Shown here piece by piece: positions 10,744 to 14,794 of a DNA stretch of 32,402 bases. This stretch comes from Mycobacterium sp. Marseille-P9652 (GTDB taxonomy: Bacteria; Actinomycetota; Actinomycetes; Mycobacteriales; Mycobacteriaceae). Under the pieces are notes generated by a model. That model saw only the letters and a program-made list of their open reading frames with translations. It was not told where the DNA came from and made no database searches. The stretch spans positions 1 through 32,402 of the forward strand of contig NZ_CACRUY010000053.1 of assembly GCF_902652685.1 (NCBI RefSeq), written 5' to 3'. Made by a program: the position numbers and the translations under genes. Within the stretch, counting starts at the first letter, position 1, and each line of letters starts with the position of its first letter.

Positions 10744-12837
<2,094 letters not shown>

Positions 12838-12901: not shown

Positions 12902-13225
12902 TCACTCCTCCACGTAGGCGCGTAATCGCTCGATGGCGGCGTCCCATCGCCGGGACAACTGCGTCAGATAGTCGCTGGCCTCCGTCAGGTGGTCGGACTC
13001 CACCGTCCAGACGCGTTCGCGTCCGCGCCGTTGGCTGCTGACCAGCCCGGCGGACGCCAGTAACAGGAGGTGCTTGCTCGCCGCCTGCCGGCTGACCGGG
13101 ATGCCCCGCGTGACTTCGGTGGTCGAACTCGGGCCGTGGTCGCAGAGCCGGACGACGATGCGCAGCCGGTTGGGATCACCCAGCGCGTCGAACACCGTCG
13201 CGGCGACCGCCCCGGCGGCGCTCAC
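12902..13225 (-). CDS. ArsR family transcriptional repressor
   Basis: 107-aa winged-helix repressor. FDALGDPNRLRIVVRL (12-27) is the typical ArsR entry helix; SRQAASKHLLLLASAGLV (45-62) is the DNA-recognition helix-turn-helix, and RRGRERVWTV forms the wing. No metal-binding cysteine pair (ELCVCDL-type) is present, so it is not a classical metal sensor. The GTG at 13225 overlaps the stop of the SRPBCC gene as GTGA. ArsR plus an AHSA1/SRPBCC protein in one operon is a common actinobacterial pair (family knowledge). It probably represses its own operon through the twin palindromes at 13703-13720 and 13749-13766. Confidence 0.9.
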   Translation of the reverse strand: MSAAGAVAATVFDALGDPNRLRIVVRLCDHGPSSTTEVTRGIPVSRQAASKHLLLLASAGLVSSQRRGRERVWTVESDHLTEASDYLTQLSRRWDAAIERLRAYVEE

Positions 13226-13701
13226 ACCCGTGCGTTCTCGGTGTAGCGGCGCACGAGTTCGGTCTGCATGGCCCAACCCTCGGCGTTGGCGTCGAACGAC
13301 GAGCGGCGGCGCGCCTCGGGTAGGGATTCGAAGCCGGATTCGGTGACGGTGAGGAGCACGCCCTCGGGCGTTTCGGACAGGGTGAACTCCACCAGCGTGG
13401 TCGGCTCTCCACCCTCGGGGTCCGGCTCGCCGGCGCAGGGATGCCAGCGGTAGGCGAACCGGCGCCGGGGTTCGACGGCCACGATGTGCCACGTGCTGGT
13501 CGTCCCCGCGTGCGGCTCCTGACGTTTGGCGACCTCGTCGTCCACCACCGTCGGGGTGATCGTTGCGGTGACGGACGTGCCGGCGACGAACGGCCCGTCG
13601 AAGCGGACGCCGAACCAGCGACCAAACTCCGCCGCCTCGCTGACCGCCCGCCACACCCGGTCCAACGACGCGCGCAACACCACGCGCTTCTCGATCTTCA
13701 T
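13222..13701 (-). CDS. SRPBCC (AHSA1-type) protein, partner of ArsR
   Basis: 159 aa, one START-like AHSA1 domain. MKIEKRVVLRASLDRVWRAV opens the fold, EFGRWFGVRFDG follows, and FAYRWHPCAG, TLVEFTLSET and GWAMQTELVRRYTE end it. Such domains bind hydrophobic ligands; the ligand here is unknown. The start was taken at ATG 13701 because AGGAGG lies 6 nt upstream; a TTG two codons earlier is not needed. The Shine-Dalgarno sequence lies inside an 18-bp palindrome, so both repressor binding to DNA and an mRNA hairpin could block expression. The gene overlaps arsR by 4 bp, which makes the two proteins co-translated. Confidence 0.88.
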   Translation of the reverse strand: MKIEKRVVLRASLDRVWRAVSEAAEFGRWFGVRFDGPFVAGTSVTATITPTVVDDEVAKRQEPHAGTTSTWHIVAVEPRRRFAYRWHPCAGEPDPEGGEPTTLVEFTLSETPEGVLLTVTESGFESLPEARRRSSFDANAEGWAMQTELVRRYTENARV

Positions 13702-13702
13702 A

Positions 13703-13720
13703 TGCAACCTCCTGGTTGCA
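13703..13720 (-). promoter_or_regulatory. Operator 1 / RBS-containing palindrome
   Basis: TGCAACCTCCTGGTTGCA is a perfect 7-4-7 inverted repeat. On the minus strand it reads TGCAACC-AGGA-GGTTGCA, so the AGGAGG ribosome site of the SRPBCC gene is split between loop and stem, 6 nt from the ATG. It can serve as an ArsR operator at the DNA level and as an RNA stem-loop at the mRNA level. Confidence 0.7.
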
Positions 13721-13748
13721 CGTCAGTGCATCACGGGCCGGGTAAAAG

Positions 13749-13766
13749 TGCAACCCTTTGGTTGCG
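13749..13766 (-). promoter_or_regulatory. Operator 2, second copy of the ArsR palindrome
   Basis: TGCAACCCTTTGGTTGCG repeats the palindrome of operator 1 with one outer mismatch and a different 4-nt centre. The two centres are 46 bp apart. On the minus strand it precedes the SRPBCC gene and lies immediately past the stop of the MetE-like gene, so the operon promoter should lie between or over the two copies. A TTGCAC within this copy could act as a poor -35. Confidence 0.65.
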
Positions 13767-13768
13767 CG

Positions 13769-14794
13769 TTAGATCGCCTCCGGGTCGTCGGCGAACGCCT
13801 CGGCGGCCGAGCGGGCCAGCTCGATAGCGGTGCGCGCCCACCGCGGCGTCGCACCCGCCAGGCCGCACGCCGGGGTGACGCCTATGCGGTCGCGCAACGC
13901 GGCGCGGCCGAAGCCCAGGCGGTCGGTCACTGCCACCACCGCGCCGGCCACCTGCTCCGCCGACGGGCGCCGCTCGGGCGGCTCGGCGGGGACCACCCCC
14001 AGCACCACGGTGCGGCCGGACTCGACGAAGGCGGCGATGCCGTCCAGGTCGGCGGCCTGCAGCGTGGCCGCATCCACCGAGACGGCTTGAATATCGCTGT
14101 CCCGCAAAATATCCCACGGCAGACCCGCGGCGCAGCTGTGCAGCAGCACCTCGGCGCCCGCCGTGGCGGCGCAGGTGTCCAGGAGCGAGCGGGCCACCGC
14201 CTCGTCGAGCGGGGCGACGGGGCTCAGCGCCGTCACCCCCGTCAACCGGCCGTCCAGGGCACTCGGCAGCAAGGGCTCGTCGAACTGCACGACCACCGGC
14301 GTCTCGAGCCGCCGGGCCAACGCCGCCCGGTGCGCGGCGACACCCTCGGCCAGCGACGCCGCGAGGTCGCGCACGGCGCCGGGGTCGGTGATCGCCCGGT
14401 GCCCGTTGGCCAGTTCGAGACCGGCGGCCAGCGTGACCGGCCCGGGCGCCTGCACCTTGACCACCCGCCCGCCGCCGCGCAGACCCGCCGTCTCCCAGGC
14501 CTCTTCGAGGGCGTCGCAGTCCTCGTCGAGCAGGCTGACGGCGCGCCGCGTGACGGCCCCCGGCCGCGCCGCGATGCGGTAACCGCGCGGCACCGTGTCA
14601 ATCGCGACGTCGACCAGCAGCGCCCCGGCCCGACCGAGCGTGTCGGCGCCCACTCCCCTGGCGGGCAGCTCCACGATGTGCGGCAGCGCCGCCCCCAGTT
14701 CCCCGACGACGATGGCGGCCGCCTCGCGGGCGACGGTGCCGGGCCAGGAGCCGACGCCACTGGCCTGTGCGAACGGACGGGCGAAATCACTCAC
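13769..14794 (-). CDS. MetE C-terminal domain-like protein (Rv3015c family)
   Basis: 341 aa, TIM-barrel protein related to the catalytic half of cobalamin-independent methionine synthase. Zinc-ligand positions of that family are retained: H219-x-C221 in LLHSCAAG and C310 in VTPACGLAG, with the acidic VQFDEPLLP (169-177). VKVQAPGPVTLAAGLELANG (113-132) corresponds to the conserved Gly-Pro-Val-T segment. The N-terminal half of MetE, which binds polyglutamylated folate, is missing, so the methyl donor or acceptor probably differs. The GTG at 14794 yields MSDFARPFAQASGVGSWPGT, the family N-terminus; the frame is open 18 codons further but without family features. Upstream of the ArsR operon on the same strand, as in Rv3015c-ligA order. 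Substrate unknown. Confidence 0.85.
   Translation of the reverse strand: MSDFARPFAQASGVGSWPGTVAREAAAIVVGELGAALPHIVELPARGVGADTLGRAGALLVDVAIDTVPRGYRIAARPGAVTRRAVSLLDEDCDALEEAWETAGLRGGGRVVKVQAPGPVTLAAGLELANGHRAITDPGAVRDLAASLAEGVAAHRAALARRLETPVVVQFDEPLLPSALDGRLTGVTALSPVAPLDEAVARSLLDTCAATAGAEVLLHSCAAGLPWDILRDSDIQAVSVDAATLQAADLDGIAAFVESGRTVVLGVVPAEPPERRPSAEQVAGAVVAVTDRLGFGRAALRDRIGVTPACGLAGATPRWARTAIELARSAAEAFADDPEAI

Follow-up and report, generated by a model that had tools for sequence, protein, structure and literature searches.

Twin palindromes before a mycobacterial SRPBCC-arsR operon as predicted ArsR operators, and a candidate code relating recognition-helix residues to site letters

Introduction

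Two palindromes take up the 67-bp gap 5' of the SRPBCC-arsR operon of Mycobacterium sp. Marseille-P9652, and both are very probably operators for ArsR, the repressor that the second gene of that operon encodes. We base this assignment on the lack of any other copy with 0 or 1 mismatch in the genome, on conservation before orthologous operons, and on the match between the class of the site and the recognition helix of the protein. Comparison with relatives in the Actinomycetota further points to a likely code, in which two residues of the helix would set two letters of the half-site. The window examined is a stretch of 32,402 nucleotides (contig NZ_CACRUY010000053.1, positions 1 to 32,402 of the forward strand), on which an earlier note, made from the sequence alone, had drawn attention to the palindromes.

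A known system suited to comparison is that of Rv2034 from Mycobacterium tuberculosis, an ArsR autorepressor of the operon Rv2034-Rv2035-Rv2036, for which the published account describes a footprint over inverted repeats 4 bp apart near the start codon (CCGTAAGT-N4-ACTTACGG, half-site GTAAG) and binding tested by EMSA (PMC3338718). In both cases an ArsR-type repressor shares its operon with a polyketide_cyc2-domain gene (here SRPBCC) and the geometry of the site is the same, whereas the half-site is GCAAC here and GTAAG there, two palindromes are found here and one is described for Rv2034, and arsR stands second here and first there (PMC3338718).

Results

The locus and its two palindromes

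The first gene of the operon (13222..13701, on the minus strand, as are all features below) encodes an SRPBCC/AHSA1-like protein of 159 aa (Pfam AHSA1 PF08327, E 1.7e-11), and the second, arsR (12902..13225), a protein of 107 aa matching NCBIfam NF033788 (E 5.9e-20) and Pfam HTH_20; the arsR start codon is GTG and overlaps the SRPBCC stop codon by 2 bases. The downstream neighbor is ligA, encoding an NAD-dependent DNA ligase (10744..12828, limits taken from the reading frame; NCBIfam NF005932, E 2.8e-259), and the upstream neighbor is a cobalamin-independent methionine synthase-like gene (13769..14791; Pfam PF01717, E 6.5e-63), which lies on the same strand and whose stop codon is separated from the operon by 67 bp. 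Read along the coding (minus) strand, this intergenic gap is CGCGCAACCAAAGGGTTGCACTTTTACCCGGCCCGTGATGCACTGACGTGCAACCAGGAGGTTGCAT.

The palindromes that the earlier note had placed before the operon, 46 bp apart, were found there in the form GCAACC-N4-GGTTGC. The predicted downstream operator is the 18-mer TGCAACCAGGAGGTTGCA at 13703..13720 (forward-strand letters TGCAACCTCCTGGTTGCA, 0 mismatches), with an extended 24-bp site at 13700-13723, and the predicted upstream operator is the 18-mer CGCAACCAAAGGGTTGCA at 13749..13766 (forward-strand letters TGCAACCCTTTGGTTGCG, 1 mismatch), with an extended 24-bp site at 13746-13769 that touches the stop codon of the upstream gene. The AGGAGG said to lie inside the perfect-stem repeat, a Shine-Dalgarno sequence, is likewise present, at 13708..13713, six bases 5' of the ATG (13699-13701).

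A loose search of the window, allowing up to 3 mismatches, gave 3 matches against 1.42 expected, and at least 3 were obtained in 18 of 100 shuffles, so the count by itself is unremarkable. The near-perfect pair is remarkable, because the 5.7-Mb genome as a whole has no further copy of GCAACC-N4-GGTTGC with 0 or 1 mismatch. Once up to 2 mismatches are allowed, the genome has no more copies of the pattern than of its reversed control (29 forward and 22 reverse rows versus 32 and 32).

Conservation before orthologous operons

A search with the ArsR protein (E 1e-15) over 198 genomes of the genus, Mycobacterium in the broad sense, gave 74 matches in 73 genomes, and all 74 loci were read; two of them (L088 and L089, about 35% identical), which have no site, were set aside as non-orthologs, leaving 72 orthologous loci. 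The earlier note had proposed to look for the palindromes before orthologous ArsR-SRPBCC operons, where their absence would have spoken against the operator reading; both are present, with at most 2 mismatches each, in 69 of the 72 loci, spaced by 46 bp in 57, 47 bp in 9, 49 bp in 1, and 54 bp in 2. The three loci without the pair are L039, with no site, and L053 and L087, with one site each; in L087 no SRPBCC match was found, and the single remaining site lies directly 5' of arsR. L039 (G029) has lost both operators together with the start of the SRPBCC gene to a G+C-rich stretch at about 1098-1400 on the coding strand; the frames of this stretch look repetitive, and matches to the methionine synthase-like gene, arsR, and ligA are still present.

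When the strict twin pattern was searched for without regard to protein, it was found in 45 of the 198 genomes of the genus (reversed control, 0/198), and 44 of these fall among the 73 genomes with an ArsR match. In the 45th, G175, the sites precede another ArsR-SRPBCC pair, with identities of 41% and 30%. This pair adjoins apparent histidine-biosynthesis genes, named by eye from their translations, and near positions 1968-2031 of its locus (L100) the gene-proximal operator is embedded in a palindrome that greatly exceeds the core site in length, with perfect arms of 20 bp on either side of N4. Genome G150 carries the operon twice (L046 and L065), with about 50 kb between the copies and a pair of operators before each. 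A scan of named genomes with the single protein returned 6 loci, 4 of them mycobacterial, with no close match outside the mycobacteria; the two remote ones, L098 and L099, have no site.

The conserved motif runs 3 bp further out on each side than the palindrome first noted, and the full site in both copies, derived from 62 non-redundant loci, is the 24-bp ANRNGCAACY-N4-GGTTGCNYNT. Its outer letters are fixed in the downstream site and held by a majority in the upstream one (A in 48/62, mirror T in 56/62), and the four half-sites mostly have the outer letters A and R in common, at equal distances. At the inner left base, T replaces C in 13/69 upstream sites (mirror base A in 0) and in 16/69 downstream sites (mirror base A in 2). 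In these alignments, the left/right asymmetry of the inner base is unlike what a pure homodimer site predicts; the Shine-Dalgarno sequence would account for the downstream case only, and the likely -35, which does not reach that base, would not account for the upstream one.

Ribosome-binding and probable promoter signals within the sites

Phylogenetic footprinting places a likely -35 hexamer, TTGCAC, at 13748..13753, mostly within the right half of the upstream operator, and a likely -10 hexamer, TGCACT, at 13725..13730. After the motif TTGCRY, which occupies part of the right half of the upstream site and the bases just 3' of it, T[AG]NNNT comes at a spacing of 17 bp in 52 and 18 bp in 9 of the 69 loci (61/69 in all), and no T[AG]NNNT stands at the right place in the other 8; the strict form TANNNT occurs at 17 or 18 bp in 35/69 and at other spacings from 10 to 25 bp in 2. 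Because TTGCRY thus precedes a -10-like hexamer at 17 or 18 bp, the upstream operator probably includes the -35. This species has a poor -10, and a transcript start placed by it would fall at about 13717-13719.

In loci whose sites are 47 bp apart, the spacer between -35 and -10 is 18 bp in 8/9, and in those with sites 49 bp (L072) or 54 bp apart (L062 and L082) it is still 17 bp (3/3), so the extra bases lie 3' of the -10. It follows from this pattern that the downstream site goes with the ribosome site and the upstream site with the -35; on the evidence of these alignments, each site keeps its place relative to its own signal and not relative to the other site. A cooperative pair of dimers on one face of the helix was also considered and set aside, as the spacings of 46, 47, 49, and 54 bp are out of helical phase; such binding is unlikely, since 46 bp, or about 4.4 turns, lie between the centers, and 54 bp in two species.

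The overlap of operator and ribosome site, which the earlier note had described for this one species, is kept in the orthologs, where AGGAGG occupies the same place in 55 of 69 loci (GAAAGG in 7, GGGAGG in 3, AGGAAG in 2, TGGAGG in 1, and TGATGG in 1). The downstream site covers the Shine-Dalgarno sequence, the start codon, and probably the transcript start. The overlap is conserved, yet it need not imply translational control; the same bases may serve two readers.

ArsR and SRPBCC proteins

The ArsR protein scores 70.9 bits against NF033788 (cut-off 55) and is also above the cut-offs of PF12840 and PF01022; its AlphaFold2 model (mean pLDDT 92.3) has helices and a two-strand wing, and the protein thus combines a match to the ArsR/SmtB family profile with a predicted winged helix-turn-helix fold. 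Its recognition helix reads SRQAASKHL, which includes R46, Q47, and K51; in the model, residues 46-58 form one helix, and R46, Q47, and K51 are at its start, placed as contacts with DNA would need.

Cysteine and histidine residues of an alpha3- or alpha5-type metal site were not found when the alignment of 26 orthologs was compared by eye with the motifs of such sites; the only invariant cysteine among these orthologs is C28 and the only invariant histidine is H52, in the recognition helix. The score of the protein against the CmtR profile (38.9 bits) is far under the 150-bit cut-off, and the likeness to metal-sensing ArsR/SmtB regulators (CmtR, NmtR, CzrA, and SmtB) is at the level of the family only. 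The SRPBCC protein has an AHSA1 profile match in PF08327 (44.8 bits, cut-off 22.1), which places it within the AHSA1 or Polyketide_cyc2 profiles; PF10604 stays just under its cut-off (24.5 versus 27.4 bits), and no NCBIfam profile matched. The SRPBCC fold is known for binding hydrophobic molecules. This partner and the lack of conserved metal-site residues would point to an organic ligand as the inducer.

The nearest solved sequences are 2oqg (possible transcriptional regulator, ArsR family), which we take to come from Rhodococcus, and 3f6o (E 3.9e-10 and 7.5e-10, respectively). Compared by protein sequence, both are only remote relatives; the helix of 2oqg reads SRQAIAKHL.

Sites before non-orthologous relatives

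A profile built from the 26 orthologs and searched over 298 genomes of the order found relatives in 266. Outside the genus, scores reached at most 89 bits within the order and 94 bits within the phylum, below the orthologs, which scored about 115 bits and more. We read 59 non-orthologous loci, namely L100 from the genus and L117-L174 from among the best matches of the order and phylum, and searched 330 bp 5' of the first gene. In 50 of the 59, an SRPBCC gene was detected beside arsR, and GCAAC-N5/6-GTTGC with at most 1 mismatch was present in 44 of these 50 (41 exact), against a shuffle background of 2.2% per locus. Two or more sites, spaced by 24 to 48 bp, were found in 41/50, and one group of relatives has N5, not N6, between the 5-mers. 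The GCAAC-type site, as far as these sequences indicate, is not private to this operon and is part of a family-wide pattern.

The six loci of the 50 without a GCAAC site are L117, L121, L133, L145, L146, and L151; L133 has sites 639 and 667 bp upstream. In the mycobacterial L145 and L146, with the helix IRQPQVSKHL, the palindrome TATTCC...GGAATA lies close upstream and belongs to another site class. Among the 9 loci without a detected SRPBCC gene, 2 have a site inside the searched stretch, 5 have one at 356 to 483 bp upstream (L152, L162, L163, L165, and L174), L170 has GTAAC, and none was found in L173.

Recognition-helix residues and site letters

L117 and L121 have the helix TRQAVTQHL and twin GCAAG sites (the second L121 site with one mismatch). 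Twin GCAAG was found in 5 of the 298 genomes: once as L117, once as L196, where it precedes a distant ArsR with MSRQAISQHL, and three times without a nearby ArsR profile match. The last three are L197, L199 (G390), and L200 (G398); in L199 and L200 twin GCAAG-N6-CTTGC lies at about 1501-1562, and the next reading frame in L199 looks TetR-like by eye. Because of these places, the pattern alone is no proof of an ArsR, and it is a weak pattern, since its reversed control also occurs in several of the searched genomes. The Rv2034-type operator with up to 1 mismatch occurs in 14 of the 118 genomes searched in the genus, and the genome of our species gave 0 matches; the helix here is SRQAASKHL, whereas SRPAVSQHL, as read in the adjoining ArsR at 14/14 of these loci and not in the Rv2034 record itself, goes with that operator. 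A fourth class, in which proline and a basic residue accompany GTAAC, was found in L246, L247, and L253. Written as residues 47..51, the classes are Q..K with GCAAC, Q..Q with GCAAG, P..Q with GTAAG, and P..R/K with GTAAC.

These classes were tallied over 165 protein-found, deduplicated, non-orthologous loci, counting all 16 G[N]AA[N] classes as perfect palindromes only and leaving out the loci found by operator pattern (14 P..Q and L196). GCAAC was present in 53/66 Q..K loci, GCAAG in 2/2 Q..Q, GTAAG in 12/30 P..Q, and GTAAC in 14/19 P..R and 0/2 P..K, both of the latter with L in place of R46; an off-class site occurred in 0 loci of the tally, the shuffle background for any class being 0.39% per locus. 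L228, whose helix the script had not read, has GTAAG and was later read as P..Q, and no other tally locus with another or unread helix has a site. Of the 13/66 Q..K loci lacking a strict site in the searched stretch, 9 have one further upstream or with one mismatch, and L151, L176, L181, and L193 have none even then; among the 18 P..Q loci without a site, 8 have L in place of R46, and 6 of the other 10 show GTAAG once one mismatch is allowed. For the other ArsR genes in the genome of our species, of whose 9 matches 4 reached the tally table, no site of these classes was found.

For a hold-out, the rule was written first, and two further searches then gave 60 loci, 56 after 4 duplicates had been dropped; the loci are new, though some genomes had been searched earlier, and L344 and L345 look like close relatives. 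R46 and a covered residue pair were present in 14 loci, of which 12 have the predicted class (P..Q 6/7, P..R 4/5, P..K 1/1, and Q..K 1/1), 0 have another class, and 2 have no strict site and near ones of the right class. The other 42 loci (6 with L46, 20 with E51, and 16 with other or unread helices) have no G[N]AA[N] site. For the six with L46, the rule without its R46 condition would predict GTAAC and fail. With L in place of R46, no G.AA. site was found in the tally (0/10) or in the hold-out (0/6), and with S or T at residue 47 no strict site was found in either (0/7 and 0/2); such helices are outside the rule.

Two further sets of loci carry other words. Before E51 proteins with RPAVSEHL-like helices (24 among L260, L288, L291, L300, and L347-L373), GTCGG-N6-CCGAC occurs in 15/24 and GTAGG-N6-CCTAC in 3/24, in an exploratory word search for which shuffles give at most 2 for any word, and these loci apparently form a further site class. 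Upstream of the RTAVSQHL helices of L242-L245 and L248, GTCGA-N5-TCGAC occurs in 4/5 (shuffles, at most 1 for any word), and this is perhaps another class.

On a tree of 97 rows, from which the helix columns were left out and in which many forks are unresolved, the independent pairs for residue 51 number 4 on the best tree and 2 on well-supported branches, base 5 changing the same way in 2/2 of the supported, scored pairings, and residue 47 gives 1 independent pair, changing the same way; with so few independent changes at the two residues, a sign test cannot reach significance. The code is correlative, with few evolutionary changes behind it, and linked changes in other residues are possible. 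We nevertheless consider it likely that, in SRPBCC-type ArsR proteins and their relatives in the Actinomycetota, the half-site is G-X-A-A-Y, inverted, with N5 or N6 between, where residue 47 would set X (Q: C, P: T), residue 51 would set Y (K or R: C, Q: G), R46 would read the first G, and E51 would shift the end to GG (GTCGG or GTAGG).

Discussion

In the mechanism that we propose, one ArsR dimer would bind each site, and, without inducer, ArsR would repress its own operon, with RNA polymerase blocked both at the -35 and at the start region. Within the half-site GCAAC, R46 may read base 1 (G), Q47 base 2 (C), and K51 base 5 (C or its pairing G). The repressor would be released by a small molecule that is probably hydrophobic and may be the one bound by the SRPBCC protein.

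Palindromes of this kind could instead act in RNA, the downstream copy being an mRNA hairpin that hides the Shine-Dalgarno sequence, as a thermometer or riboregulator would. The start of the transcript can fold into a stem with the Shine-Dalgarno sequence partly in the loop (-9.5 kcal/mol for a 33-nt form, with 1/200 shuffles as stable, and -13.9 for a 48-nt form, with 7/200), and the C to T changes of the left arm still allow a G-U pair. A start 2 bases later, however, leaves a hairpin of only -2.5 (85/200 shuffles), and the upstream copy overlaps the likely -35 and would not be transcribed. Non-orthologous loci with two sites, moreover, have 42 to 240 bp between the nearer site and the point where the profile match of the first gene begins, so that this site need not touch a ribosome site. 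The sequence itself, not the pairing alone, is fixed, and it tracks the ArsR helix; we regard an RNA element as very improbable.

Recognition by ArsR is also to be preferred to recognition by another regulator, with the target of ArsR lying elsewhere, which we rate as slightly less probable still. Palindromes alone do not name the protein that binds them, and twin GCAAG sites can occur where no ArsR was found (L197, L199, and L200). Against this, the near-perfect site, found nowhere else in the genome, accompanies arsR across the genus and persists in L087, a locus without a detected SRPBCC gene; its letters also vary with residues of the ArsR helix. Least probable of the three is that the conservation reflects mere shared ancestry of a short intergenic stretch with promoter and ribosome signals; part of each site does double as -35 or Shine-Dalgarno sequence, but the left arms are conserved without such signals, conservation is largely absent from the 15 bases that separate the upstream site from the -10, and non-orthologous loci have the same core again, spaced by 24 to 48 bp.

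Autoregulated ArsR operons with palindromic operators are already familiar. In the open literature, titles and the beginnings of abstracts among the matches listed held no account of this operator or code, which is weak evidence of novelty, subscription papers lying mostly outside that literature. What the present analysis offers is a precise predicted operator for an uncharacterized repressor and, with it, a compactly built control region whose predicted operators themselves contain the likely -35 and the ribosome site. Relatives of this ArsR are common, as the profile matches in 266/298 genomes of the order indicate, and, to our knowledge, few of them have a known target. If the code is true, a large group of repressors, most of them unstudied, would have operators readable from protein sequence, regulons and sensor promoters would be predictable from two residues, and the exchange of one residue would call for a set change of one base pair in the site.
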